Shown one piece after another: positions 46,756 to 63,645 of a stretch of DNA of 64,000 nt (position 1 is its first letter; each line of letters opens with the position of its first letter). Source of the DNA: Nitrospira sp. MA-1 (lineage in GTDB: Bacteria; Nitrospirota; Nitrospiria; Nitrospirales; UBA8639). The DNA lies in the NCBI GenBank assembly GCA_032139905.1, contig JAQJDB010000006.1:62001-126000 (forward strand), read 5' to 3'. Under the pieces are notes generated by a model. It did no database searches and had not been told where the DNA came from. It saw only the letters and a list, made by a program, of their open reading frames with translations. The position numbers were made by a program, and so were the translations under genes.

Positions 46756-48651
46756 ATGTCCTTGCTAAAGAGGATTGAAAGTCCAGCAGATTTAAAGAAA
46801 CTTTCCCGTGAGCAATTCCCTGAACTCTGTCAGGAAATTCGGGAACTCATTATAGAAGTGATTTCCCATGTTGGTGGGCATTTAGCCTCCAATTTAGGCG
46901 TGGTTGAGTTGACTGTGGCATTGCAATATTTATTGAATACTCCTGATGATAAAATCGTCTGGGATACCGGCAATCAGGCTTACACACATAAATTATTAAC
47001 GGGTCGGCGTGAACAATTTCATACGGTCCGACAGTTCGGTGGAATAAGCGGATTTTGTAAAAGAGAAGAAAGTATTTATGACACGTTTAATGCCGGACAT
47101 GCCGGGACCGGGGTTTCCGCTGCCGTGGGCTTTGTGGAGGCTCGTGAGCAATTAGGAAAGTCCAATAAGGTGGTTTGCGTCGTAGGAGACGGTGCCCTCA
47201 CTGCCGGAATGACTTTGGAAGGGCTTCAGCATGCCGGAGATATGGGCCGAGACTGTGTCGTGATCCTGAATGATAATCAAATGTCGATTTCCAAAAATGT
47301 CGGGGCCATTTCCGCCTACCTTAATCGGACCTTTACCGGGGAATTCTATACAAGGCTTCGGGAAGAAACTTCTCAACTCCTTGAGACTATTCCGCAAATT
47401 GGGGAACCCGTGAAGCGAATGGCGATACGGGCTGAAGAGCTGGCCAAAGGCTTTCTGCTGCCAGGCTTGCTTTTTGAAGAGTTAGGATTTCGATATGTTG
47501 GTCCGATTGATGGACATAATTTTGAGCATTTATTGCCGACTCTGGAGAATGTTCTAAAATTAAAAGGGCCAACTCTCCTGCATGTGATTACCAAAAAAGG
47601 ATTAGGGTTTCAGCCGGCCATGAAAAATCCTGTTTGGTTTCATGCCTGTTCACCCTTTGATTCCAAGACTGGGCAACCGGTGAAAAAGCCCGGTCACCCC
47701 TCGTATAGTTCCATTGCAGCCAAAACACTGATTCGTCAAGCCAAAAAAGATAACCGGGTGGTGGTCATTACGGCTGCCATGTGCGAGGGAACTGGAATGG
47801 CAGAGTTTGAGAAGGAGTTTCCTTCCAGGTTAATTGATGTAGGGATTGCTGAACAACATGCCGTGACGTATGCGGCTGGTCTCGCCGCTGATAATATGCG
47901 GCCGGTTATTTGTATGTACTCTACATTTCTGCAACGGGCATATGATCAGGTTGTGCATGATGTGGCAACCCAAAATCTTCCGGTGACCTTTTGTATTGAT
48001 CGGGGAGGATTGGTGGCGGAAGACGGAACCACGCATCATGGGGCTTTTGATTTTGCGTTTCTGCGGCATGTTCCCAATATGGTGATTATGGCACCAAAAG
48101 ATGAAAATGAACTTCAGCATATGGTCCAAACAGGACTGGTGCATGATGGGCCAGTGGCGGTTAGATATCCTCGCGGCAGTAGCCTGGGGGTGCCATTAGA
48201 TTCTGAACCCACTCCTCTTTCAATTGGACAGGGTGAATTATTGTCTGATGGGCATGATGTGGCGATTATCGCCATTGGAGTGATGGTTTCGGAGGCTATG
48301 AAAGCAGCGGAGCGTTTAGAAGAAGAGGGTGTGTCGGTGTCTGTCATAAATGCACGGTTTGTGAAGCCTCTGGATAAAAATCTTATTCGGGATGTTGCCA
48401 AAAAAGTGAAGTGTTTAATTACGATTGAAGAAGGTTGCCGGATGGGCGGTTTTGGATCGGCTGTATTAGAGTTTTTATCAGAGGAAGAATGTTGGAGTAT
48501 GCCGACCAAGGTGCTCGGGTTGCCAGATTGGTATATTGAACAGGGTCCTCAGGATTTGCTCCGGGAAAAGTATGGCCTCACGGCGGATGGTATTTATGAT
48601 CAGGCCAAGGCGTTGCATGACCGGGTTTCCCTTCAAGCCGCAATACGTTAG
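46756..48651 (+). CDS. dxs: 1-deoxy-D-xylulose-5-phosphate synthase
   Basis: Dxs joins pyruvate and glyceraldehyde-3-phosphate, the first step of the MEP route to isoprenoids. The 631-residue thiamine diphosphate enzyme shows SHVGGHLASNLGVVELTVAL, VWDTGNQAYTHKLLTGR, GHAGTGVSAAVGF, the ThDP motif GDGALTAGM with a later NDNQMSISKNVG, and the transketolase C domain FIDVGIAEQHAVTYAAGLA-like segment (LIDVGIAEQHAVTYAAG). AAAGGA lies shortly before the ATG. It provides precursors for the hopanoid genes upstream, with ispG immediately downstream. Confidence 0.97.
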   Translation: MSLLKRIESPADLKKLSREQFPELCQEIRELIIEVISHVGGHLASNLGVVELTVALQYLLNTPDDKIVWDTGNQAYTHKLLTGRREQFHTVRQFGGISGFCKREESIYDTFNAGHAGTGVSAAVGFVEAREQLGKSNKVVCVVGDGALTAGMTLEGLQHAGDMGRDCVVILNDNQMSISKNVGAISAYLNRTFTGEFYTRLREETSQLLETIPQIGEPVKRMAIRAEELAKGFLLPGLLFEELGFRYVGPIDGHNFEHLLPTLENVLKLKGPTLLHVITKKGLGFQPAMKNPVWFHACSPFDSKTGQPVKKPGHPSYSSIAAKTLIRQAKKDNRVVVITAAMCEGTGMAEFEKEFPSRLIDVGIAEQHAVTYAAGLAADNMRPVICMYSTFLQRAYDQVVHDVATQNLPVTFCIDRGGLVAEDGTTHHGAFDFAFLRHVPNMVIMAPKDENELQHMVQTGLVHDGPVAVRYPRGSSLGVPLDSEPTPLSIGQGELLSDGHDVAIIAIGVMVSEAMKAAERLEEEGVSVSVINARFVKPLDKNLIRDVAKKVKCLITIEEGCRMGGFGSAVLEFLSEEECWSMPTKVLGLPDWYIEQGPQDLLREKYGLTADGIYDQAKALHDRVSLQAAIR

Positions 48652-50025: not shown

Positions 50026-50124
50026 TTTATTCGGGTTTTATCAGACGTAGGTGTTAGGTTTTTGCGGAGAAAAAGAAGTAGACGCTCTTGAAATTTGGCA
50101 ATTACCTCCAGGAGTAAAATAACA

Positions 50125-51141
50125 ATGTCGGTACCTGTGTCCCAAATGTACACCGTAGCTCATTATGCTCTCTCACAGCACTTGCGGGGTGTGAAGCGAT
50201 ACCCTCTTGTGATGATGTTGGAACCGCTCTTTCGGTGTAATCTGGAATGTGCAGGATGTGGGAAAATACAATACCCGGACCATATTTTGAATCGACGCCT
50301 GACGCCTGAGCAATGTTTGGCTGCGGCTGATGAATGTGGTGCGCCAATTGTGAGTATTCCTGGGGGAGAGCCCCTCATTCATCCTGAAATGCCAGCTATT
50401 GTCGAAGGGCTTGTGAGGCGGAAAAAGTATGTTTATCTCTGTACAAATGCCATTCTGCTTGAAAGAAAATTACAGGACTACACTCCCTCTAAATACCTTA
50501 CCTTCAGCATCCATATGGATGGCCTCAAGGAAGAACATGACCATGCCGTTTGTCGAGATGGCGTCTATGACGTTGCTGTGAAAGCCATTAAAGCCGCTTT
50601 GGCTAAAGGTTTTCGCGTAACGACCAATACGACATTATTTAATGATGCGGCGCCTGCTCGTGTGAGAAGATTTTTTGATGAGATGATGGAGTTGGGTGTG
50701 GAAGGCATGATGATCTCTCCTGGGTATAGTTATGAAAAGGCGCCGGATCAGCATAGTTTTTTAAGCCGTGAACGAACGCATTCGTTATTTGCGCAATTGC
50801 TGGCTCAACGAAAACGCAGTTGGCAGTTCAATCAATCTCCCTTATTCCTTGAATTTCTGATGGGGAAGCGAGAGTATGAATGCACCCCTTGGGGGAATCC
50901 CACGTACAATATTTTTGGTTGGCAGCGCCCCTGTTATTTATTGCAGGATGGGTACGTATCCACTTTTCGAGAATTAATGGAAGAAACGGAGTGGGAGCGT
51001 TATGGATCGGGACGACATGAACAATGCCGCGATTGCATGGTGCATTGTGGATATGAAGCTTCGGCTGTGAAAGATACCTTCAGTTCATGGGGTGGGTTTT
51101 TCGGCACCGTTAGGGCAACCCTGTTTCCCAATGCTGTGTGA
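50125..51141 (+). CDS. hpnH: Hopanoid radical SAM protein HpnH (adenosylhopane synthase)
   Basis: HpnH couples a 5'-deoxyadenosyl radical to diploptene, the first step of hopanoid side-chain extension. The 338-residue product holds the radical SAM cluster motif C38-x3-C42-x2-C45 (CNLECAGC), the SAM-binding GGEPLIHPE near 80-90, and a C-terminal cysteine-rich region (CRDCMVHCGYE). PWGNPTYNIFGWQRPCYLL is typical for HpnH. AGGAG lies 11 bases before the ATG at 50125. HpnG, which acts on its product, is 8 kb upstream in the same block. Confidence 0.94.
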   Translation: MSVPVSQMYTVAHYALSQHLRGVKRYPLVMMLEPLFRCNLECAGCGKIQYPDHILNRRLTPEQCLAAADECGAPIVSIPGGEPLIHPEMPAIVEGLVRRKKYVYLCTNAILLERKLQDYTPSKYLTFSIHMDGLKEEHDHAVCRDGVYDVAVKAIKAALAKGFRVTTNTTLFNDAAPARVRRFFDEMMELGVEGMMISPGYSYEKAPDQHSFLSRERTHSLFAQLLAQRKRSWQFNQSPLFLEFLMGKREYECTPWGNPTYNIFGWQRPCYLLQDGYVSTFRELMEETEWERYGSGRHEQCRDCMVHCGYEASAVKDTFSSWGGFFGTVRATLFPNAV

Positions 51142-51575: not shown

Positions 51576-52187
51576 CAATCTTAATAATACTATTCCCGCA
51601 AGCATTGTTTTCCCTTCATCGTTCTGAATCATCCAAATAATTCAAAACAGCTTTTGCATTTAATCCGATTCTAGGTGGGATGGGAATTTTTTTTCTCTCT
51701 CGACTCATTCACTGGTCTGTTTATTCTCCAAAAATACAGGCATGGAAAGGGTAAAGAGCCCGCAAGAACGTAGGAAATAATTGACGGTTGGCTTCTGACT
51801 GTGATAGAAGTCCTGAACTTTTTTGGGCCCAAGAGACCTATGTAGCCCAAGGGATTTTGAATAGGAAAAAACAATTGTTCCGGTCAGTCTGTTTATGGGC
51901 TTCAGAGGTAGACCATCATTCTTGGATTGAGGTCAGAATTTGTGGAAATGAGATGGAATGGCCTTGAGGCGGTCGTTGTTTCCGTGAGGGAAGCTCTGGC
52001 AGATATTTTGGAGAACGGGGAGTCAGGATTGATGTTTTATAGAAGGTTGTCCTTCACTAAAAAGATAAGGATCGGAAGAAGTAATTTTTAGAAGGAGTGA
52101 TTCTGGTCTTTAAGTCTAGAGGGGCAAATTTTAGGTGAGGTAATGTGGAATTTGGCAAACCAAGATTCAGGTAAACGAGGGGGAACA
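51576..52187. other. Long leader upstream of the respiratory cluster
   Basis: About 610 bases with no supported gene. It should hold the promoter for the ten-gene redox cluster. No riboswitch, binding-site repeat or terminator was recognised. Purine-rich GAAGGAG occurs at 52093 but leads to no reading frame of note. Confidence 0.35.
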
Positions 52188-52736
52188 ATGAACGAGTTTC
52201 AATTTGTAAAAAGTCTTTTAGTTAGTGGTTTGGCTGTCATGGGCCTGTCGATGTCAGCATGTGGTGGTGGGGGTGAAGGTCCGCCGCAACCTCCTCCTCC
52301 TGCTCCTCCGGAATATGCAGATAAACATATGCCGTCGGGTTATTGGAATAATCCGGAGATCCTTGCAGAAGGGGAGGCGATTTTTACCGGTCAGCAGAAT
52401 ATTGATGTGAATTGCGCGAGTTGCCATGGTAAAGATGGAAAGCCTGTGAAGGCTGGTGCTCGCGATTTCCGGCGAACCGAGCAAATGGAGCTATATTCGG
52501 ATGCGGTATGGTTTTGGCGAGTGTCTGAGGGGGTATCTGGTACAAAGATGAAAGCTTGGAAGAGCAAACTTTCAGAGGATGCCATTTGGAAGGTAATTGC
52601 GTATGAAGCCAGTTTTGGGCTCAAGGGCAAGGAATATGATGTTGCGAAAGGTCAATGGGTTCCTTCAGGAGGAGCTGGTGCCGCTCCTGCTGCCGCACCA
52701 CCTGCGGATGGAGAGCCTGAAAAAGCGGCAGAGTAA
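52188..52736 (+). CDS. Mono-haem c-type cytochrome lipoprotein
   Basis: This 182-residue protein has a signal peptide ending in the lipobox MSAC (Cys25), a proline-rich spacer (residues 32-41) and one class I cytochrome c domain. CASCH is at residues 76-80, and a distal methionine is likely in GTKMKAWKSKLSEDAIW. The C-terminus is alanine/proline-rich. AGGGGG lies before the ATG at 52188. It heads the redox cluster; it is likely a periplasm-facing electron carrier tethered to a membrane. Confidence 0.9.
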   Translation: MNEFQFVKSLLVSGLAVMGLSMSACGGGGEGPPQPPPPAPPEYADKHMPSGYWNNPEILAEGEAIFTGQQNIDVNCASCHGKDGKPVKAGARDFRRTEQMELYSDAVWFWRVSEGVSGTKMKAWKSKLSEDAIWKVIAYEASFGLKGKEYDVAKGQWVPSGGAGAAPAAAPPADGEPEKAAE

Positions 52737-52774
52737 TCCAGGAATTGAATGAAAAAGAAGGAGGGCGGGGACCC

Positions 52775-54490
52775 TTGAAAACACTGAATCGCAGTCTATT
52801 GATATTTCTAGCGTTGGGCCTAAGTGGAGTGGCTACTGCCTTTGGGCAGGTTCCAGATGCTCCACTTGTAGATTTTCCCTATTCGGGGAATCGAACGGCC
52901 GTATGGGTTGTCGCCCAACTTCATATATTATTTGCGGCGTTTATTCTAGGCGCTCCGATATTTGCGGTTGTAGCTGAATGGCTTGGGTATAAGAATAACG
53001 ATCCGAAGTATGACCGTCTGGCCAAGGAAGTCATTAAGGTTACAGTCATCCTGTATAGTATGACAGCCTTAACTGGAGGTTTGTTCATATTTGTCCTCCT
53101 GGGGACGTATCCTGACTTTTCGACATGGTTGATCAAGCATTTTTTCCTTGTCTTTGCGGTCATCTACCCTCTGCTGTTTATCCTTGAAACAATAATTTTG
53201 TATACCTATTTTTATTCATGGGATTCCATGAAGGGAGCGAAAAAAGGACGACATATCGCTCTTGGCATCCTATTGAATATAGTGGGAACGGTGACACTCT
53301 TTGTCATTGACGGACCGACCGCATTTATGAATACGCCGGCTAAAGCTGTGGAAGGCGTGTCATTGGTTGAGTTTATCCAGACCGCCAGCTTGTGGGACAA
53401 GATGGCTAACTTTAGCTGGATGCCCCTCAACCTCCATCGACTGGTAGGCAATGTGACGTTTGGTGGGTTTATTGCCGGACTTATTGCGGCTTATATGTTT
53501 ATGGGATCAAAAACAGAAGAGGAGCGCGCATATTACGACTGGATGGGTTTTGTGGGAAACATGATCGGCGTTGGGGCGCTGTTGCTCCTTCCATTCATGG
53601 GTTACCTCCTGGCCTACGAGTTGTGTGATTACGACGCTTCCATTTGTCCATACATGATGGCTGACCAATTGTCGATGTTTTTTGAGATGCAGGGGGCAAT
53701 GATCGGCCTGATCTTTCTGGCCAGTAATTATTACATTTGGTTAAGTCTTAAGCGAATACAGGGTGTAGAGCAGGTACGGATATCTGGATTCGTTGCAGTG
53801 GTGGTGGTGTTTATGCCGGCCATCATGGGATTTACCTGGAAAATGTTCCCTCCTCCTGAGTGGCAGTCTTTGATTGTCCTAGGAATTCTGGTCATTTTGC
53901 CTGTTGTGCTTGGGAAAGTTCCCGGTCTTAAGAATTTTACGGTGTCGGCATTCACCATGATTAAGGTTGGTTTTTTAATGATTGTGGTGGCAGATGCGAT
54001 TTGGATGACACCTCATGGTTTTGTTCCGACCCAAGGCCTGGCCACTGAGGAATTGGAATTGCCGTCATGGGCGAGTGAGTTAGCGCTTATGCCAGCGAAA
54101 AATGCTGCAGCCTTTACACTCGTGTTCCTGACTGTGGTCAATTATCTGTTGTATAACCGGGCAATTAAGCGAGGAACAATCATCTGGGGAAAAATTGATT
54201 TCGCTTCACAGTTTGTCCTCATATTCCTCGCCTTTAGTGTGATTTGGACAATGGGCCTCATGGGCACGGTACGTTCATTGACGCGAAAGTATTACCATGT
54301 TTATAACCTCGTTCCTGATTTTACTCCTGAAGCGTTTACGCCGACCCTGGCATACTCGGCATGGTGGATAACAGGGGTGACTATTGTGTTTTACGCTGTT
54401 GTGAGTTTTGCCATTCTTGTCACGCTAAAAGCTGGAAGCTCGAAACCGGCCACATCATTGGCATCCTCGGTCCCGGCTGAAGCTAAATGA
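52775..54490 (+). CDS. Cytochrome bd-like (CydA-like) membrane protein 1
   Basis: A 571-residue protein with a signal-like N-terminus and about 13-14 helices. Several CydA marks are kept: H50 in AQLHILFAAF (like the haem b595 histidine near position 19 of E. coli CydA), ILETIILYTYFYSWD (like the CydA LES...GWD helix, with the conserved acid), DGPTAFMNTP in place of NSWMQxP, and H221 in NLHRLVGNVTFGGF (like the b558 histidine). The Q-loop and the GRQPW segment of true oxidases are missing, as is a CydB neighbour. A TTG at 52775, 9 bases after AAGGAGGG, is preferred as start over one at 52745. It is probably a haem b membrane subunit of the redox complex; oxidase activity is doubtful. Confidence 0.85.
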   Translation: MKTLNRSLLIFLALGLSGVATAFGQVPDAPLVDFPYSGNRTAVWVVAQLHILFAAFILGAPIFAVVAEWLGYKNNDPKYDRLAKEVIKVTVILYSMTALTGGLFIFVLLGTYPDFSTWLIKHFFLVFAVIYPLLFILETIILYTYFYSWDSMKGAKKGRHIALGILLNIVGTVTLFVIDGPTAFMNTPAKAVEGVSLVEFIQTASLWDKMANFSWMPLNLHRLVGNVTFGGFIAGLIAAYMFMGSKTEEERAYYDWMGFVGNMIGVGALLLLPFMGYLLAYELCDYDASICPYMMADQLSMFFEMQGAMIGLIFLASNYYIWLSLKRIQGVEQVRISGFVAVVVVFMPAIMGFTWKMFPPPEWQSLIVLGILVILPVVLGKVPGLKNFTVSAFTMIKVGFLMIVVADAIWMTPHGFVPTQGLATEELELPSWASELALMPAKNAAAFTLVFLTVVNYLLYNRAIKRGTIIWGKIDFASQFVLIFLAFSVIWTMGLMGTVRSLTRKYYHVYNLVPDFTPEAFTPTLAYSAWWITGVTIVFYAVVSFAILVTLKAGSSKPATSLASSVPAEAK

Positions 54491-54514: not shown

Positions 54515-55327
54515 ATGGCTAACCAAAGTTTTGCCAAGAGTGTCATGAAAAAGACCACCTTGGGGGTCATTATTGGAGTGTTGTTGGTAGTTGGGGCCAA
54601 GTTTACCCATTTCCCACCAGTCTTTCAGGTCATGTTTTTTCTTTATGCAATGCTAGGGGCGTTGGTATTTATTCTTTTAGATGCTCCGGCAATGAAACGG
54701 TTGGAAGGAGTGAAGGCTGTTGGGGCTTTAGTGGTGTTTTACCTCCTGCTTTCTGGACTTTATATTGCCGGGGCGTCGATTCTGCCTCAGTTTGACCCTG
54801 AAGATGAAAAGGGGAAAATTGAAAAAGTCTTGAAACTTCGTCGCGCCCAAACGGAACAAGGCAAAGCGGATGAGTTGATTGCCAGGGCAAAGGAATTGGA
54901 TGAACGGGCTAAAGCTATTTCCAAGCAACTGAGTTCTCTTGGAGCTGATACCAAAGTTGAGGTGGTGTCTACGCCAGGTCCGGCAGGTGGTGGAGCGGCC
55001 TCAGGCGACCTTGTGGCTCTTGGGAAAGATCAATGGGAACTTCAAGAGTGCTATAACTGCCATAAGCTGTATGGCCAGGGTGGGAAAAAGCGTGGGCCAG
55101 AGATGGATAATATCGGTAACCTCATGACCCCTGAACAGTTGAAGGAAAAAATTATAGATCCAAAAAGTTGGAAAGCAGAAGGATTCGATAAGGATTACGA
55201 TAAAGGGAAAATGCCTGATAAGTATAAAGATCTGATGTTCCCCCAGGAAATTGATGCGCTTGTTGCCTTTCTTGCTTCGTTAAAAGACGAATCAGTTAAA
55301 ACTCCGAAGCCAATAAAAATGAATTAA
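54515..55327 (+). CDS. Membrane-anchored mono-haem cytochrome c with coiled coil
   Basis: This 270-residue protein has three hydrophobic helices in residues 15-90, then a charged coiled-coil stretch (about 97-145, KIEKVLKLRRAQTEQGKADEL) and a glycine-rich hinge. The single cytochrome c domain has C179-Y-N-C182-H183, with KGKMPDKYKDLM probably giving the sixth ligand. A long rigid arm between membrane and haem is the notable layout; it could hold the haem near the Rieske head. It lies between the CydA-like and Rieske genes. Confidence 0.87.
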   Translation: MANQSFAKSVMKKTTLGVIIGVLLVVGAKFTHFPPVFQVMFFLYAMLGALVFILLDAPAMKRLEGVKAVGALVVFYLLLSGLYIAGASILPQFDPEDEKGKIEKVLKLRRAQTEQGKADELIARAKELDERAKAISKQLSSLGADTKVEVVSTPGPAGGGAASGDLVALGKDQWELQECYNCHKLYGQGGKKRGPEMDNIGNLMTPEQLKEKIIDPKSWKAEGFDKDYDKGKMPDKYKDLMFPQEIDALVAFLASLKDESVKTPKPIKMN

Positions 55328-55352: not shown

Positions 55353-56297
55353 ATGCAACCAAAATTGACAGCAAAAGCATTGTGTGCGAACAAGGAAGTC
55401 GGGAAGATTTCTAAGGTTATTGTTGATCCACTTTCCCACGAAATTAGTCATATTATCGTTCAGGAATTGAATGGCCACGGGGCGCAACGCCAGATTCCTA
55501 TCGGCCAGGTTCAAGAGGTGGTGAGTGAGGAGGAAATTGTTCTTCGTTGTTCATCCGAAGAATTCGGTCAATTTCCAGTACTGGAGCGAGATCAGTACGT
55601 CACAATTAAGGAAGTGGAAATTGCGCATTTGGAGGATCATTTACATGTTGAACCTGGAGAAATCTTGGTTCCTTTGCCCCGTTTAGAGCAAGGGGTACCA
55701 AGGCGCACGTTTTTTACCAATATGACACATGCGATTGGAGCTTTAATTGCCTTGCCATTAGTGTTTCCTGTGTTGAAGTATCTCATGAAGCCAATGTTCA
55801 AACCCTACGATAATGCCTGGTTTTCGGTTGGCAATGTCAAAAAGGTGAATAAAGAGAATATTGGATTCCAATTCAAATTTACCCGTGGGTTTAAAGAAGC
55901 ATTTATGCCGGAGCAACAGATTGAAAAAAATATTTGGGTAGTCAAGGCAACTCCGGCAGTTCAAAAAGCCGTATACCAGGGGAATGATATGAAGTTTTAC
56001 GATAATAAAGGGGATGTTATTTGGGTAAACAAATCCAATTCTCCCTATATCGGCTACTCCGGGAAATGCCCTCATCTTGGTTGTGGGTATAAATGGAGAA
56101 AGACGAAAAACTTTCCGGACGGGGTGTTTTTATGCCCCTGCCATTTGAGTATTTATGATGAGGCTGGAAAAGTTATCGATGGCCCGGCACCTAGGCCGCT
56201 CGACGTTCTCCCTCTGCAAGTTGATGCGGGTGGAGAAGTGAAAATAATCGATGTGGAGTATAAAGCCGGGGTAAATAACCAAATTCGGCTTCTATAA
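55353..56297 (+). CDS. Rieske iron-sulfur protein with N-terminal PRC-barrel-like domain
   Basis: A 314-residue Rieske protein. Cluster ligands are C239, H241, C261 and H264, with a disulfide pair C244/C263 (CPHLGC and CPCHLS boxes). The usual G in box 2 (CxCHG) is replaced by L. There is one membrane anchor near residues 126-145. Before it lies a domain of about 100 residues (ANKEVGKISKVIVDPLSHEISHII, RQIPIGQVQEVV), which matches a PRC-barrel, a fold not usual in bc1 Rieske proteins. The domain would face the cytoplasm if the topology is standard. The next gene is cytochrome b, as in a bc complex. Confidence 0.9.
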   Translation: MQPKLTAKALCANKEVGKISKVIVDPLSHEISHIIVQELNGHGAQRQIPIGQVQEVVSEEEIVLRCSSEEFGQFPVLERDQYVTIKEVEIAHLEDHLHVEPGEILVPLPRLEQGVPRRTFFTNMTHAIGALIALPLVFPVLKYLMKPMFKPYDNAWFSVGNVKKVNKENIGFQFKFTRGFKEAFMPEQQIEKNIWVVKATPAVQKAVYQGNDMKFYDNKGDVIWVNKSNSPYIGYSGKCPHLGCGYKWRKTKNFPDGVFLCPCHLSIYDEAGKVIDGPAPRPLDVLPLQVDAGGEVKIIDVEYKAGVNNQIRLL

Positions 56298-56325: not shown

Positions 56326-57438
56326 ATGAAGGAAGACAGTCAAATCGCAAGTCCACAAAATGCTTTTGAAAAGGTTGTGGAATTTGTTGATGAGCGAGTA
56401 GGCCTGAAAACAATTCAGGCCAAAATGCTGAATGAGCCAATTCCCGGTGGTTCTCGCTGGGCTTACGCTTTTGGCTCGGTGTTGTTATTTATCTTTATTC
56501 TTCAGGTCGTCACTGGGATCCTGCTGATGTTCTACTATGTCCCCAGTACGGATCATGCTTATGCGAGTACTCAGTACATCATTCACGAGGTGGACTACGG
56601 ATGGTTTCTGTTGAGCTACCATTTTTGGGGATCCTCTGCAATGGTGGTTATGGTTTTCGCGCATATGTCTCAAGTATTTTTATGGGGTGCCTACAAAAAG
56701 CCGCGAGAACTGGTCTGGCTCGTCGGTTTGGCGTTATTTGGCATTGTGATGGGTTTTGGTTTTACAGGTTATCTTCTTCCGTGGGATCAACGCGCCTACT
56801 GGGCAACGGTGGTAGGTGTAGAAATTATGGATAAAACTCCACTTGTTGGTGATTTTATAGCTCGATTTCTTAAGGGTGGTCCTACGCCTGGGCAAATGAC
56901 CTTGAGCCGGTTCTTTGTCATACATGTCATGGTCTTGCCTGCTGCGTTAGCGGGGCTGGCTGGCCTTCATATTTTCCTGTTTAGAAAGGCCGGGCCCGCA
57001 GGTCCGTTCAGAGGAACTCCTGAAGAGATTAAAGCAAAAACAGATTATTTCTTTCCTCGTCAAATCTGGAAAGATATTGTAGCTATGGCCACGGTGTTCT
57101 TAATCATTTGTTCTCTGGCCTTCATTGAACCAGTGGTGCTGCTGGAAAAGGCGACTCCTGATCCTGGAGATTACCATCCTGAGCCTGAGTGGTATTTCTT
57201 GTTCTTGTTTCAGTTGCTGCGTTTGAAAATTTTTGGCGGGGAGTTTGGTCAGTTCCTTGGAGCTATGGCCATACCAGGTGCCTTTATGGCGTTTTTAGCA
57301 GCGTTGCCTTTTTTGGATACCAATTCAGAGCGCAATATTTTTAAGCGCCCCATCGCTCTGGTTGGGTGGACTGTGATCATGGTCTTTATTTTGGTGTTTA
57401 CGGTGTCCGCAATTATAAACCGACACTTTTTAGACTAA
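56326..57438 (+). CDS. Cytochrome b, b6-type haem spacing, fused subunit-IV-like half
   Basis: A 370-residue membrane protein with four haem-binding histidines: H99/H113 with 13 residues between and H200/H215 with 14 between. The second value is as in cytochrome b6, whereas mitochondrial-type cytochrome b has 13 in both. The RFFVIHVMVLP and FRKAGPAGP segments also look b6-like. The C-terminal half contains the quinol-site motif PEWY at 287-290 and resembles subunit IV, so it is a b6-IV fusion of about the combined length. The b6 Cys that binds a third haem is not seen. It forms the quinone-oxidising core together with the Rieske protein just upstream. Confidence 0.93.
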   Translation: MKEDSQIASPQNAFEKVVEFVDERVGLKTIQAKMLNEPIPGGSRWAYAFGSVLLFIFILQVVTGILLMFYYVPSTDHAYASTQYIIHEVDYGWFLLSYHFWGSSAMVVMVFAHMSQVFLWGAYKKPRELVWLVGLALFGIVMGFGFTGYLLPWDQRAYWATVVGVEIMDKTPLVGDFIARFLKGGPTPGQMTLSRFFVIHVMVLPAALAGLAGLHIFLFRKAGPAGPFRGTPEEIKAKTDYFFPRQIWKDIVAMATVFLIICSLAFIEPVVLLEKATPDPGDYHPEPEWYFLFLFQLLRLKIFGGEFGQFLGAMAIPGAFMAFLAALPFLDTNSERNIFKRPIALVGWTVIMVFILVFTVSAIINRHFLD

Positions 57439-57451
57439 TTTCTGGGAACAT

Positions 57452-58348
57452 ATGTCAAATACGAAGTTAGGACTTCTTGTTTTTTGGCCTACATTCTGGA
57501 CCGGATTTCCAATAAAGATGGTTGTCGCCTTGTTGTTGCTGGCGGCACACATCCACCCTTGGGAGGGGAGCGGGCTTTTTTTATTGCTACTTGTTTCCAT
57601 CCCGGTTGATATTTGGGCGCTTGGTCTGTGCGCGAGAACCGTTTTTATTGACCGGCTGAAGGTCGATCCGAGGCCTGGTATTGGCCTTCAACTTTGGATT
57701 CGATGGGCAGTCTTCAGTGCTTTGGCATTGCCGATCCTTCTTTTCGTGGTGTCCACGGTAGCGGAAACTGCTCAGTCAGTGGTTTCCAGTATTGTGGAAT
57801 CTATTAAAGAGAATATTTTTGTCATTCCGGTTGCCGAGCAGATAAGTCTGGAGCTTGTTATGTGGGGGAGTGTGGCGTCGGTCGCGCTCATTCTCTGTCT
57901 TTTCGGGTGGCTGTTTGGACTAGGGTGGCTTGCTCAGCCATTTGTAAAGGATGCGAAGCCAGTGGTCGGTTCCGCAGTGGACCAGGCTAATTTTTGGGAT
58001 AGTTTACGTATACCAGCGGATCAGCCCCTGCTCTTAACAGCATTTACCGGGTTAGGGGTGGTGTTGGTGTTTCTTTTCTGGGTTCTTCTGCCCCCAACAA
58101 CCCCTCATCCCCATGAAGAATATGTCTATACGTTTGAAAAAAAGGAAAAGGAAATAGTTGAACCAAAAAAGATACTAATGGAAGCGGAGCAAGTTCTAGC
58201 CAATGCAGAGCTTGCCGTCTTAAAGCTTCAGGAAGAGAATCCATTGGATTCAGAATCAGCTGTAAAATCTAAGGACCTTCCAAAAGAAAGCAAACAGAAT
58301 AATAAGATAGATACACAGGTTCCGGTTAAGGGAGAGGGAAAACCTTAG
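57452..58348 (+). CDS. Unknown polytopic membrane protein with coiled-coil tail
   Basis: A 298-residue protein with about six hydrophobic helices in residues 8-230 and a charged C-terminal helix (KKEKEIVEPKKILMEAEQVLANAE) that could form a coiled coil. No haem-binding CxxCH or clear family motif is seen. It lies 13 bases after cytochrome b and is followed within 66 bases by the second CydA-like gene, so it is probably a structural or accessory subunit. I do not recognise it. Confidence 0.75.
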   Translation: MSNTKLGLLVFWPTFWTGFPIKMVVALLLLAAHIHPWEGSGLFLLLLVSIPVDIWALGLCARTVFIDRLKVDPRPGIGLQLWIRWAVFSALALPILLFVVSTVAETAQSVVSSIVESIKENIFVIPVAEQISLELVMWGSVASVALILCLFGWLFGLGWLAQPFVKDAKPVVGSAVDQANFWDSLRIPADQPLLLTAFTGLGVVLVFLFWVLLPPTTPHPHEEYVYTFEKKEKEIVEPKKILMEAEQVLANAELAVLKLQEENPLDSESAVKSKDLPKESKQNNKIDTQVPVKGEGKP

Positions 58349-58414
58349 ACTAAGTTTTGGAATTTCTGGAGTGTAGCCTTGAACAAAATAATGAACGATC
58401 GAAGGGGGGCCAGA

Positions 58415-60277
58415 ATGAATACGGCCGGCCAATTAGGACATACAACCGTTTCGCAAGGAATGAATAGAATGCCTGGAATGCTTAAATTGGCAAGTTTTTT
58501 GGCCCTTCTCTTTCTTCCGGCTTTGGGTATGGCGGCTGGAGGTGCTGAGATTCAGGCAATGTCGGTGGAATATCGGGATGTTCCAGGAATCGGTAGCCGT
58601 AATCTGATATGGATTGTGGCCCAACAGCATTTGTTGCTGGCTGGTTTCGTTTTGGGTGTCCCAATTTTTGCCTGGATTTGTGAACTTGTTGGTTGGAAAA
58701 CGAAAGAAGCTCGGTACGACAAGCTCGCCAAAGAATTTACAAAGCTTTTGACGTCAGCCTATGCCACCACGGCCCTTTTTGGAGGGATCCTTTTGTTCCT
58801 CCTGATCGGACTTTATCCAAAGTTGATGGCTTACCTGACCGATATGTTTTTTCCTTCTTTCTTAGTATATTGCCTGCTCTTCTTACTAGAAACCGCCACC
58901 CTCTATATGTATTGGTACGGGTGGGATTACATGCAGGGAAATAAAAAGACATTCCATCTTTTTTTAGGATTCCTCCTGAATCTTTTTGCTCTTGGAATCA
59001 TGGCGGTTCCCAATTCATGGGCAACCTTCCAAGCGAGTCCTGTCGTGCTAGGGGAAGGAGATGCCTGGTCGAGAGCTTGGATGGCTATGCAAAATCCTAC
59101 ATGGATGCCGGTCAATATTCATCGCCTCATCGCCAATGTAGTGTTAGGTGGATTTATCGTGGGAGCTTATGCAGGCATCAGGTATCTTTTGGCGGTTTCC
59201 CGTGAAGAGCGTGAGCATTACGACTGGATGGGTTATGTCGGTAATTTTATTGGGGTGTTCGGTATGTTGCCCCTTCCCTTTGCCGGCTATTGGCTTATGC
59301 GTGAGGTGTACCAATACAACCAACAAATGGGGATTACCCTTATGGGTGGTTTCTTGGCATGGCTGTTTATTCTTCAAGCCATGCTGATTGGGGTGCTGTT
59401 CCTGGGGGCGAACTATTATTTTTGGATGGGAATTACCTATAGAATACCGGGGTCTGAAAACCAATACAAAAAACCGGTAATGGCGATGTTAATCGTCTTA
59501 TTATTGTGTCTCGGAATATGGATGACTCCGCATTCTTTGGTCGCCAGTTTGGCTGAAGCCCAAAAGATGGGTGGGACTCACCATCCCTTGCTTGGTGTTT
59601 TCGGTGTGATGTCTGCCAAAATGACGGTATCGAATATCATGATCCTCGTCACGTTTATGAGTTTTATTATGTATTGGCGCGCGGGAAAACAGGAAACGGC
59701 AGGTTGGGCAAAAGCAGCTAAAGCCATTATGGGAGGATTGCTTGTCATTGCAGGAATCGCCGTTGTGGTTCTTGGGGTATGGGGGTATTTCGTCCCTGCC
59801 ATCATTCGTATTAATTACTTTTCGGTCGCACAAGTATTAATTGTCCTGTTCATTATGATTACGTTCACTCCGCTAACCGCCATTTTAATGAAAAGTGCCA
59901 AAACTACAACCGAAATGGTGTGGGGTAAAATGCCTATTCGGGCAGGGTATAGTTTAGTTTTAAATGCGGTCATGGTGATTTTACTTATGTCATTAATGGG
60001 GTATGCCAGGTCATCATCCCGAGTACATTGGCACATTTATGGTGTTATGAGAGATACCTCGGAATATGCCTATTCCCCAGCATTAGGGTATGCAGCGGCA
60101 TTTATGTCTCTTAACACTTTTGTGTTTTGTCTAATCGTCGCGTTTATCTTTTGGGTGGCAACACTAGGTGATAAAGCCAAAGCTCAGCCGCCAAGGGGAT
60201 CTACCGTGGATATTCCTGGCCATTCGGCTCCAGCTATGGCTGGTGGTGCACCAAGGGCCGTGGAAAAGCTTGAATAG
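58415..60277 (+). CDS. Cytochrome bd-like (CydA-like) membrane protein 2
   Basis: A 620-residue protein, homologous to the product of 52775-54490, with a signal-like N-terminus and about 14 helices. It keeps H72 in AQQHLLLAGF, E159 in LLFLLETATLYMYWYGWD, PNSWATFQASP (close to CydA NSWMQxP) and H236 in NIHRLIANVVLGGF. Near the C-terminus RVHWHIYGVMRDTS resembles the GRQPW...YG...RT segment of CydA, which protein 1 lacks. There is no Q-loop and no CydB. The ATG at 58415 follows AAGGGGGG. It is likely a haem b subunit of the same complex; the more CydA-like C-terminus makes it the better candidate for a reactive haem. Confidence 0.86.
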   Translation: MNTAGQLGHTTVSQGMNRMPGMLKLASFLALLFLPALGMAAGGAEIQAMSVEYRDVPGIGSRNLIWIVAQQHLLLAGFVLGVPIFAWICELVGWKTKEARYDKLAKEFTKLLTSAYATTALFGGILLFLLIGLYPKLMAYLTDMFFPSFLVYCLLFLLETATLYMYWYGWDYMQGNKKTFHLFLGFLLNLFALGIMAVPNSWATFQASPVVLGEGDAWSRAWMAMQNPTWMPVNIHRLIANVVLGGFIVGAYAGIRYLLAVSREEREHYDWMGYVGNFIGVFGMLPLPFAGYWLMREVYQYNQQMGITLMGGFLAWLFILQAMLIGVLFLGANYYFWMGITYRIPGSENQYKKPVMAMLIVLLLCLGIWMTPHSLVASLAEAQKMGGTHHPLLGVFGVMSAKMTVSNIMILVTFMSFIMYWRAGKQETAGWAKAAKAIMGGLLVIAGIAVVVLGVWGYFVPAIIRINYFSVAQVLIVLFIMITFTPLTAILMKSAKTTTEMVWGKMPIRAGYSLVLNAVMVILLMSLMGYARSSSRVHWHIYGVMRDTSEYAYSPALGYAAAFMSLNTFVFCLIVAFIFWVATLGDKAKAQPPRGSTVDIPGHSAPAMAGGAPRAVEKLE

Positions 60278-60337: not shown

Positions 60338-60976
60338 ATGAGTGAAGTCGCGCTATTACAAATAATAGGCATGTGTGTCATTGGGGTAGGAATTCTTATC
60401 CTGCTTTTTATTAAGGGAATGTTCCTTCGGGTTTTAGGTTTTGTCGCGATGGTGTTGGGAGTCTTTAGTTTAATTGCCTTGAGCGTTCCGCAAATGGCCT
60501 CCTTGCCTCCTGCTGTAGAAACCTTCGATCTTGCCAGCGTTAAAAGCCCGGATGATTTGGCTTCAATTGGGCAGAAAATATTTTTTAGTAAAGGACAATG
60601 TGCCTTGTGCCATTCAATCGGGCCAAGTGAGTCTGCCCGGTGCCCAGATTTAAATGGTATTGGAGCAAAACTGTCTCCGGAATTTATCTATGAAAGTTTA
60701 ACTCAGCCTCAAGCCTATATTTATTTGGACTTCAGGCATGATGGTGTTCCAAAAGAATATCCGGCACAGATGCCCCATATCGACAAGGATCCTATCGGAT
60801 TAAGTAAGCAGGAAATTTATTCGGTCATTGCTTTCCTCCAAAAAATGAGTGGTGAACCAATCAGTATCAAAGTTGAGGACATTATGGAAACCGAGCAAAA
60901 ATCGGATGATTCGTTAAAGGTCGCTTCGGTCTCTTCACCACTGAAATCGCAAATGGAAAATTCGGCGGATCGCTAA
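60338..60976 (+). CDS. Membrane-anchored mono-haem cytochrome c
   Basis: This 212-residue protein has two N-terminal hydrophobic helices (about 7-25 and 29-50) and one cytochrome c domain with C88-A-L-C91-H92. Y-P-A-Q-M-P-H in the second half offers a methionine ligand. The end is serine-rich and disordered. It lies downstream of the second CydA-like gene and is probably an electron exit or entry port of the complex. Confidence 0.88.
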   Translation: MSEVALLQIIGMCVIGVGILILLFIKGMFLRVLGFVAMVLGVFSLIALSVPQMASLPPAVETFDLASVKSPDDLASIGQKIFFSKGQCALCHSIGPSESARCPDLNGIGAKLSPEFIYESLTQPQAYIYLDFRHDGVPKEYPAQMPHIDKDPIGLSKQEIYSVIAFLQKMSGEPISIKVEDIMETEQKSDDSLKVASVSSPLKSQMENSADR

Positions 60977-61004: not shown

Positions 61005-61730
61005 ATGAAAGGCCCTATTACTAGTGGAGCAATCGTTCTTGCTGGTGTGTTTATATTTTTAAAGTTTTTACTTCCGTTATTTACGGCACCACTTCCAGCA
61101 AGTTTAATTTACCTGTATTTGGCCTTAGCCCTGAGCGGCATTATGATTTATGGGACCATGAGTGGCCCATCCTTGGAGGCGATGATGGGCCCGGTCTTCC
61201 GTTTTTTATCTGGTCAAGGCCAATCAGGAATAGGCCATATGGCAAGATTGGCAGTGTTGGTAATGTTCCCGCTTCTGGTGGGGTGGCAGACGTACTCCAG
61301 TTTGGCTCCGAGCGACCTGCCGCCTGCGGAAAATAGAACCATTCATCCTGCACCTCCTGGGGAGTTTGTTGGTTTGTCAAATCCTTATCCAAAAACTCCC
61401 GAAAACATTATGATGGGTAAAGGCCTGTATGCAGCCTACTGCTCACCTTGCCACGGAGCTAATTTTGATGGAAAGGGCACAGCAGCTCCTGGGTTTAATC
61501 CTCCTCCAGCTGATTTTACTGATCCTGGGACCATTGCCCAGTTACAAGAGGCCTATTTGTTCTGGAGGATTAAAAAAGGTGGAGTAGGATTACCTGTGGA
61601 AGGAATGCCTTGGAAGTCAGCTATGCCAAGATGGGAAGAGGAATTGCCGGAAGAATTTATATGGAAAATTATAATGGGTGAATATGACGGAGCCCATCAA
61701 TCCCCACGGACGTGGGAAGAAGAAGAGTAA
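61005..61730 (+). CDS. Membrane-anchored mono-haem cytochrome c
   Basis: This 241-residue protein has three hydrophobic stretches in the first 100 residues (GAIVLAGVFIFLKFLLPLF, ASLIYLYLALALSGIMI, ARLAVLVMFPLLVGW). The cytochrome c domain has C146-S-P-C149-H150 and a candidate distal methionine in VEGMPWKSAMP. It is followed directly by a haem b protein, an arrangement that would let electrons pass between haem types. Confidence 0.88.
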   Translation: MKGPITSGAIVLAGVFIFLKFLLPLFTAPLPASLIYLYLALALSGIMIYGTMSGPSLEAMMGPVFRFLSGQGQSGIGHMARLAVLVMFPLLVGWQTYSSLAPSDLPPAENRTIHPAPPGEFVGLSNPYPKTPENIMMGKGLYAAYCSPCHGANFDGKGTAAPGFNPPPADFTDPGTIAQLQEAYLFWRIKKGGVGLPVEGMPWKSAMPRWEEELPEEFIWKIIMGEYDGAHQSPRTWEEEE

Positions 61731-61774
61731 GCATAACCCAATCATGTTGTGGATAAATGAGTGGAGAATATGAC

Positions 61775-62611
61775 ATGTCGAACGGACTAAGAAGCCTAGG
61801 TGCCATATCCATTATTGGGCTGTTCGGAGTCCTGGGGTTTACGGAAACATTTGCTAGCGAACCGCCGGCTTCCGATGAACTCGGGAGTGTTTCGGTTCGA
61901 ATGTATCAATTAGAAGGCAGCTTACCAACCGCTGACCCTAATTCTTCACAATGGGATTCAGTGCCTGGTTCTGAATTTAATCTGGCGCCACAGGTGCATT
62001 GGCCTCCCCGAATTCAGGAAGTAACCGTTAAATCAGTCAAGGCTAAAGGGGTTCATAATGGGCAAGAACTGGCTATTTTAGTGGAATACGATGATCCCAC
62101 AGAAGATCCGGGGGACGCCGCTGCACTTGAATTTATGGTTGGAGACAAGCCAGCCCATTTTGCCCATGGTCAGGAAATGCTGCAGGTTGAAGGTGGACCG
62201 GTAAACATTTGGTTTTGGAAAAAGGAAAGTGGCCAAGCTGTTGATATGAGTGCGAAGGGGTTTAAGACCTTGGAAACTCAACCTCACCAGGATGTTCAGG
62301 CAACAGGGGTTTGGCAAAATGGGACATGGAAAGTGGTCTTTACCCGATTGTTAAAAACTGAGGACGAGCAGGATGTTCAAATAGAACCTGGCGAATGGAG
62401 AAATGTGGCCTTTGCTTTTTGGGATGGGGCCATTGTGGATGGTCTTGTAAAGGAAAAAGGTGGACAGAAAGCCGTTTCTACTTGGTGGTATATTCGGGCT
62501 GAACCGAGTGCAGATAATTCCATTTTTGGTTGGGTTATATTGGGCTTAGCCCTCGCAGCGGCCTTCGAACTGGTGATTGTAAGGAAACTGAGAAAGGGGC
62601 AATCAGTATGA
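61775..62611 (+). CDS. Haem b-binding protein, ethylbenzene dehydrogenase gamma-like
   Basis: This 278-residue protein has a signal peptide and a C-terminal membrane anchor (GWVILGLALAAAFELVIVRKL). The central domain (WPPRIQEVTVKSVKAKGVHNGQELAILVEYDD, DAAALEFMVGD, NIWFWKKESG, GTWKVVFTRLLKTEDEQD, RNVAFAFWDGA) matches the haem b gamma subunit of type II DMSO reductase enzymes. In that family Met and Lys bind the haem; the Met in EFMVGD and a Lys in the WKVVF region are candidates here. In Nitrospira similar proteins are discussed as possible nitrite oxidoreductase gamma subunits. No molybdopterin subunit is in the window. Its stop overlaps the next ATG. Confidence 0.83.
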   Translation: MSNGLRSLGAISIIGLFGVLGFTETFASEPPASDELGSVSVRMYQLEGSLPTADPNSSQWDSVPGSEFNLAPQVHWPPRIQEVTVKSVKAKGVHNGQELAILVEYDDPTEDPGDAAALEFMVGDKPAHFAHGQEMLQVEGGPVNIWFWKKESGQAVDMSAKGFKTLETQPHQDVQATGVWQNGTWKVVFTRLLKTEDEQDVQIEPGEWRNVAFAFWDGAIVDGLVKEKGGQKAVSTWWYIRAEPSADNSIFGWVILGLALAAAFELVIVRKLRKGQSV

Positions 62612-63645
62612 AACTGATAGCGGGAGGCGGTCGTGATATAACAGTCATCGGTTTGGCCGTTGTCGGATTTACCTTCACGCTATTCTCTGGATGCGCAATT
62701 TTTGAGGATGAAAAAACCTCTAAGGGCCGAAAGCTCTATAACCATTATTGTAGTCATTGTCATGGGGAAACCGGACAACAAGGGGAAGGCTTTAATTGGG
62801 AGCGCATGTCGGACCCCAGACCTAAAAATCTCGCATCCAATGCCGAAATGTCCACCTTTAGTGATGAAGAGATTTTCCACACTATTTATCGGGACATGAA
62901 AGATACGACCGATCCCAAAGTATTAGATGACGAGGACTACTTTGCCGTCCCTACCATGCCGACATTTAAGTACACCTTATCGGAGGAAGAAATCTGGTCT
63001 ATTGTGGGTTATGTTCGGACCCTTCATGGTATGTCGTTGAGCTATGATTTTGAAGCCAGGAAAAAAGAATTAGATGAGGCATTCCAGGCGGCACAGCAAG
63101 AGATGGAAACGGCAAAAGCGTCTTTTGAGGCCGCAACCGAGAAAGCGGAGGCCGCTCAAGCTGCTTATGAAGAAACGCTGACAGATGAGCAGCTTGAGAA
63201 TTACGAACCGGAAGAAGTCACGATTCCGGAAGAGGAAGCGTTCCTGGCAGCGAATGAGAAATATGAAAACGCTAAAGCCTCTGTTGATAACTTTTTAAAG
63301 CGTCCTAAAAAGGCTCAGGTCTCTCGACCGGATCTCTCCTTACCTGAAGAGGAACGTGCCGTCCAAGCTAATCTGGGAAAACAGTTATATAATGACAAAT
63401 ACGGATGTCAGGGATGTCATAGCCTCAATGATGAAGGTGGGCTGGTTGGTCCTGCATTAGATCGAGCAGGATTTCGCCTCAATCCTACATGGGTCTATCG
63501 GTGGATTCTGTATCCTCAAGCCATGAAAAAACATACCAGGATGCCAAATTTAGGGATTTCAGACCAAGATGCCAAGGCAATCACGTATTATTTAGGGACA
63601 CTCCAGGCCCCAAAACCAGAAAATCCAGTTCCCCTCTCAGAATAA
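62608..63645 (+). CDS. Dihaem cytochrome c lipoprotein with coiled-coil linker
   Basis: This 345-residue protein has a lipobox (FSGC, Cys29) and two cytochrome c domains: C48-S-H-C51-H52, and C267-Q-G-C270-H271 in the C-terminal half. Between them, roughly residues 145-235, lies a charged coiled-coil segment (KKELDEAFQAAQQEMETAK) followed by an acidic EEVTIPEEEAF part. The ATG overlaps the previous stop (ATGA), indicating translational coupling. GMSL and TRMPNLG can supply the methionine ligands. It closes the redox cluster and would carry electrons to or from soluble partners. Confidence 0.89.
   Translation: MKLIAGGGRDITVIGLAVVGFTFTLFSGCAIFEDEKTSKGRKLYNHYCSHCHGETGQQGEGFNWERMSDPRPKNLASNAEMSTFSDEEIFHTIYRDMKDTTDPKVLDDEDYFAVPTMPTFKYTLSEEEIWSIVGYVRTLHGMSLSYDFEARKKELDEAFQAAQQEMETAKASFEAATEKAEAAQAAYEETLTDEQLENYEPEEVTIPEEEAFLAANEKYENAKASVDNFLKRPKKAQVSRPDLSLPEEERAVQANLGKQLYNDKYGCQGCHSLNDEGGLVGPALDRAGFRLNPTWVYRWILYPQAMKKHTRMPNLGISDQDAKAITYYLGTLQAPKPENPVPLSE

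Follow-up and report, generated by a model that had tools for sequence, protein, structure and literature searches.

The OR-N1 and OR-N2 proteins of Nitrospirales, known as bd-like_1 and bd-like_2 in N. moscoviensis, with NIDE0901 as the OR-N2 of N. defluvii, have been treated in several papers (PMC12342949, PMC10839748, PMC10579370), and the NIDE0901-like OR-N2 has been proposed to form with OR-N1 a terminal oxidase of the CydAA' type (PMC12342949, PMC10839748). In N. moscoviensis, bd-like_2 is followed by two cytochrome c genes and alt_NxrC_1, and the region carrying bd-like_1 and bd-like_2 shows high transcription (PMC6606698). No report on the purification of this type of OR-N enzyme was found in the literature surveyed. 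In the canonical CydA of Escherichia coli, His186 and Met393 are the ligands of haem b558 and Glu445 is that of haem b595, haem d has been assigned to His19 (PMC8585947), and Glu99 faces haem d (PMC6853902).

Identification, classification and fold of the two proteins

The window analyzed here is the whole stretch of 64,000 nucleotides from Nitrospira sp. MA-1, and the genes of the cluster described below are all located on its + strand. It carries two genes encoding CydA-like proteins with a TTG start, P1 (OR-N1 or bd-like_1; 52745..54490, 581 aa) and P2 (OR-N2, bd-like_2, or NIDE0901-like; 58379..60277, 632 aa). The start of P2 was originally placed at 58415, where an in-frame ATG 12 codons after the TTG is also a possible start; the open reading frame used here begins at 58379. 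Both open reading frames correspond to real proteins of the CydA superfamily, matching the Pfam domain PF01654 (Cyt_bd_oxida_I) with E-values of 3.6e-16 (P1) and 1.6e-17 (P2). Their assignment to the haem-copper oxidases was rejected, as neither protein matches PF00115. In the phylogenetic tree built for this analysis, P1 and P2 fall into distinct clades with high support (98/100 and 100/99) and group with the proteins of N. moscoviensis and N. defluvii. A P2 homolog was identified in all the 146 Nitrospirales genomes searched, a few of these matches, at only 44–47% identity, being possibly a paralog.

The AlphaFold models of the two proteins are of medium quality (pLDDT 66.2 for P1 and 67.7 for P2) and fail in the C-terminal segment. 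Their best matches are solved CydA chains, with Z-scores of 28.7 (P1) and 21.8 (P2) over about 340 residues and nearly their full length, on which grounds any other fold was rejected and the CydA-type fold originally predicted was upheld. The next-best matches are membrane subunits of the alternative complex III (Z 14.7–17.0 for P2, with one at 11.8, and 19–23 for P1), while unrelated folds score about 11 or less. Ranking below CydA, the matches with the membrane subunits of alternative complex III and polysulfide reductase (Z about 12–23) can be read, at the level of the models, as a shared four-helix arrangement.

The genome, which is 99.98% complete, contains seven PF01654 proteins, two of which are canonical CydA proteins with an adjoining cydB gene; no CydB is encoded in the cluster carrying P1 and P2. 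No haem-copper oxidase (PF00115) was detected in this genome, and PF00115 is likewise absent from 64 of 97 Nitrospirales genomes.

Organization of the gene cluster

P1 and P2 belong to a cluster of 11 genes, most of which were assigned by domain searches. It begins with a cytochrome c carrying a Cytochrome_CBB3 domain (52143..52736), followed by P1, a second cytochrome c (54515..55327), a Rieske iron-sulphur protein with a weak PRC-barrel match at its N terminus (55353..56297), the cytochrome b of a bc complex (56326..57438), an uncharacterised membrane protein of 298 aa located directly upstream of P2 (57452..58348), P2 itself, two cytochromes c (60338..60976 and 61005..61730), an NxrC-like haem b protein of the EB_dh / DMSO reductase type II gamma-like type (61757..62611), and a cytochrome c with two CxxCH regions (62530..63645). 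The NxrC-like gene occupies the position of alt_NxrC_1, and the order matches that described in N. moscoviensis (PMC6606698). The whole cluster is present in most of the 80 loci fetched, including those of N. moscoviensis and N. defluvii, in which the P2 ortholog occupies the same place, and the breaks occur chiefly at the ends of contigs. The spacing between P1 and P2 (about 5.7 kb) is kept in the same cluster across Nitrospirales, and in nearly all the loci they are separated by, among others, the genes for the Rieske protein and cytochrome b. Upstream of the cluster, 50095-51141 encodes an HpnH-like hopanoid radical SAM protein, and, on visual inspection, the open reading frames at 46756 and 48661 resemble Dxs and IspG from the isoprenoid pathway.

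The membrane protein encoded at 57452-58348 gave no match above the cut-off in Pfam or NCBIfam and occupies the same place in nearly all the loci, and is a candidate for an unrecognised subunit. It has a conserved TPHPHE motif after its last helix. In other orders of the class, the corresponding open reading frame is just 97–138 aa long and matches from about residue 181 onward. Among the loci compared, the long form of this protein is distributed in the same way as the two-helix insert of OR-N1 described below.

Two other contigs deserve mention. A Troglogloeales contig (L110:2663-10043) carries two P2-type genes along with a third bd-like protein, cytochromes c, and NxrC-like genes, and no P1. 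In a contig titled Nitrospinota (L136:3499-5415), the P2 protein is sister to that of the window (84% identical) and falls inside Nitrospirales, and this genome is likely to have been misbinned or mislabelled.

Haem ligands and quinol site

The conservation figures given here and below are based on 88 P1 and 122 P2 homologs. The two histidines originally noted in each protein (as H50/H221 and H72/H236) are indeed kept, and correspond to H60/H231 in P1 and H84/H248 in P2; all four are invariant, with a gap in a single row at H60. In the HHalign alignments with CydA, H60 of P1 (52922..52924) and H84 of P2 (58628..58630) are equivalent to His19 of E. coli, and H231 of P1 (53435..53437) and H248 of P2 (59120..59122) to the b558 ligand His186. 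The invariant M411 of P2, in the GVMSAK motif (59609..59611), was matched with Met393 by eye (FRIMVACG / YHVMAGLG), the CydA alignment stopping short of this residue; M449 of P1, in LALMPAKN (54089..54091), is also invariant and is aligned with M411 when the P1 and P2 profiles are compared using HHalign (57 P1 and 73 P2 sequences; probability 100, E-value 1.8e-86). Judging from these sequences, the methionine of the VMSAK/LMPAK motifs is the probable equivalent of Met393, the second ligand of b558. The LET...GWD helix previously attributed to both proteins occurs as such in P2, while P1 reads LET...SWD.

The glutamate of helix 3 corresponding to E. coli residue 107 is kept in 94% of the P1 and 98% of the P2 homologs. 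Glu99, on the same helix, is absent and is replaced in both families by an invariant tyrosine (Y141 in P1 and Y164 in P2). The profile alignments of P1 or P2 with canonical CydA end before the GRQPW region, and the position of Glu445 therefore rests on an ungapped match via the paralog bd3; a gapped MAFFT alternative places Leu/Met there instead, and no acidic residue was found at this position in either family under either reading. Since the carboxylates of Glu99 and Glu445 are missing, the active site must differ from that of canonical cytochrome bd. The original observation that neither protein has a Q-loop holds: the positions of Lys252 and Glu257 are occupied by Met317 and Met322 in P2, and P1, the alignment of which is gapped there, has no Lys. 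At the sites of Glu99, Glu445, Lys252, and Glu257, the two families therefore depart from canonical cytochrome bd to the same degree. A quinone role, which had been put forward as a possibility, is unlikely because the quinol-site residues are absent from both P1 and P2, in agreement with published statements on OR-N and bd-like proteins (PMC3578206, PMC10839748).

The NSW motif was correctly described as specific to P2: it consists of residues N212-S213-W214 (59012..59020), which are equivalent to residues 148-150 of E. coli CydA (NGW; canonically N-G/S-W), whereas P1 has DGPT there, its family carries D/N-G-P, and the Trp is absent from its homologs. Among the 122 P2 homologs, W214 is invariant, the Asn is present in 97%, and the central residue is Ser in 63% and Ala in 37%.

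The C-terminal segment

The original prediction focused on a GRQPW-like segment near the end of P2 that P1 was said to lack. This segment (residues 548-560, RVHWHIYGVMRDT; 60020..60058) does include HWHIYGVMRDT, at residues 550-560. The absence from P1 is ruled out by the ungapped profile alignment, in which HHalign pairs the P2 segment from end to end with residues 514-526 of P1 (RKYYHVYNLVPDF; 54284..54322), setting RSLTRKYYHVYNLVPDF of P1 opposite RSSSRVHWHIYGVMRDT of P2 and MGLMGTVRSLTRKYYHVYNLVPDFTPEAFTP opposite MSLMGYARSSSRVHWHIYGVMRDTSEYAYSP with no gap. The P1 version is strongly conserved, with a family pattern (R/K)K(Y)(F/Y)H-Y----D in which K515, H518, and D525 are invariant in the 88 homologs; in the 122 P2 homologs, R548, H552, G555, V556, and D559 are invariant and W551 is present in 98%. 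The residues invariant in both families (P1/P2) are M503/M537, M506/M540, G507/G541, R510/R544, H518/H552, and D525/D559. The differences consist in the replacement in P1 of W551 by Phe/Tyr, of G555 mostly by Asn, and of R558 mostly by Pro. The segment is common to both proteins, in altered form; P1 has lost the Trp, Gly, and Arg residues and not the segment.

The resemblance of this segment to GRQPW was assessed with a shuffle test. The P2 segment resembles two of three canonical reference regions (p 0.004 and 0.03) and not that of E. coli (p 0.88), while the P1 segment shows no likeness to any of the three (p 0.06–0.52); taken alone, this contrast is weak. The match between bd3 (GRLEWHISEIMP) and E. 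coli (GRQPWAIGEVLP), with a shuffle p of 0.006, supports the homology of the segment's site to GRQPW. The Glu445 that precedes GRQPW in canonical proteins has no counterpart here, where the corresponding residues are RSSSRVHW in P2 and RSLTRKYY in P1, and there are no acidic residues in residues 515-548 of P2. The models have a pLDDT of <50 at P2 549-570 and P1 507-542.

Fixed differences between the two families

Sharper contrasts between P1 and P2, which the original prediction had missed, lie in two pairs of helices and in several histidines. P2 has a two-helix hairpin at about residues 437-510 (59687..59908), which is absent from every OR-N1 sampled, both from Nitrospirales and from other orders. 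P1 contains an insert of roughly 60 residues (approximately 346-408; 53780..53968) that forms two helices, placed by the model at 348-367 and 373-391; this insert is carried by the OR-N1 of Nitrospirales and absent from that of other orders (L066-L072). H385 of P2, in the WMTPH motif (59531..59533), is invariant in its family, whereas its P1 counterpart H424 is conserved in only 75%; H401-H402 of P2 (59579..59584) are invariant in the 122 homologs and have no counterpart in the P1 alignment. Since the two CydA paralogs show fixed, clade-wide differences, the division of roles originally suggested is plausible on these grounds and on that of the separate clades; the segment, which is present and conserved in both, does not serve to distinguish them. 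OR-N2 seems the likelier catalytic subunit, because it has more fixed histidines (H385, H401, H402, and H552) and keeps the canonical Trp residues, with OR-N1 as its partner.

Possible function and alternative explanations

From the homology, fold, ligand conservation, and gene order observed, the lack of a haem-copper oxidase, and the papers cited, we infer a pairing, a haem content, an electron donor, and a reaction for the two proteins. P1 and P2 are quite probably OR-N1 and OR-N2 of the cytochrome bd superfamily, which together would make up the putative CydAA' oxygen reductase of Nitrospirales and would use no quinol; as part of this explanation, the altered segment would represent a structural element common to both proteins, in a version particular to the clade, and not a matter of presence or absence of a site. 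Electrons from nitrite oxidation would pass to membrane-anchored cytochromes c that the cluster encodes, then enter the pair at a low-spin haem with ligands of the His186/Met393 type, and move on, without quinol, to a second haem close to the His19-type ligand, where oxygen would be reduced. The PF01654 matches, the CydA fold, the invariant ligands, the missing quinol residues, the shared cluster, and the lack of both a haem-copper oxidase in the genome and a CydB in the cluster speak in favor of this reading; the two canonical CydA/CydB sets, which could respire oxygen, the missing Glu99/Glu445 carboxylates, and the medium quality of the models speak against it. It is possible, if rather unlikely, that P1, P2, and the 57452-58348 protein together form one oxygen reductase without the Glu99/Glu445 carboxylates, in which one of two unequal paralogs, with the extra histidines and the Trp kept, is catalytic, and the other has become the electron-entry partner by losing the hairpin and gaining the two-helix insert.

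The position of the Rieske and cytochrome b genes between P1 and P2, a similar role proposed for related bd-like proteins (PMC3578206), and the presence of two canonical bd oxidases could also mean that P1 and P2, rather than mainly reducing oxygen, serve in reverse electron transport, working with the Rieske/cytochrome b complex to drive electrons uphill from cytochrome c to quinone. This is unlikely in view of the missing quinol-site residues and of the lack of a haem-copper oxidase, which leaves the genome with no other obvious cytochrome c oxidase. The separate clades and the fixed hairpin, insert, and histidine differences, along with the P2 homologs occurring without P1 on the stretches fetched from L110, L074, and L075, would also suit two separate enzymes, such as homodimers, with different substrates; however, the two genes keep their spacing in one cluster across Nitrospirales and their products are treated as partners in the literature (PMC12342949, PMC10839748), which makes this quite unlikely. 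Whether the P2 segment is an oxygen or quinone site that was lost in a catalytically dead P1 was also considered: P2 keeps R..W..YG-MR where P1 has F/Y and N/P, and the shuffle test favors P2, but the P1 version is strongly conserved and shares invariant Arg, His, and Asp residues with P2, P1 keeps all three His/Met ligands, and the segment is modelled at low confidence in both proteins, so that this idea is very unlikely. The contrast originally drawn between the two proteins was partly right in its letters and wrong in its meaning, and the specific finding is largely ordinary.

For nitrite oxidisers of global importance, most of which have no haem-copper oxidase, the OR-N1/OR-N2 pair is considered the principal respiratory oxidase. 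The hairpin, the insert, the histidines, and the missing Glu99 and Glu445 provide concrete residues with which to test which subunit reduces oxygen.

Comparison with known systems

Canonical CydA (E. coli, Geobacillus) shares with P1 and P2 its fold and the equivalents of His19, His186, and Met393. In comparison, P1 and P2 lack the Q-loop residues, the Glu99/Glu445 carboxylates, and GRQPW as such, have extra helices, and belong to a cluster without CydB. Within the same genome, the bd-like proteins L004, L005, and L006, of the bd-like_3/4 type, belong to the same superfamily and resemble P2 in having the segment Trp, H385/H402, and the additional hairpin; they are 36–43% identical to it and form a separate clade.

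The closest system is the CydAA' pair of Nitrospirales, i.e., bd-like_1 and bd-like_2 of N. moscoviensis and NIDE0901 of N. defluvii, which has the same gene order, with adjacent cytochromes c, Rieske/cytochrome b, and an NxrC-like gene (PMC6606698, PMC12342949), and likewise the CydA-type fold and the missing quinol site. As expected of an OR-N-type system, the cluster carries two CydA paralogs instead of CydA and CydB. The N. moscoviensis proteins are 72% (P1) and 82% (P2) identical to those of the window, with no difference of kind found between them. P1 and P2 are orthologs of this pair, which has already been described.
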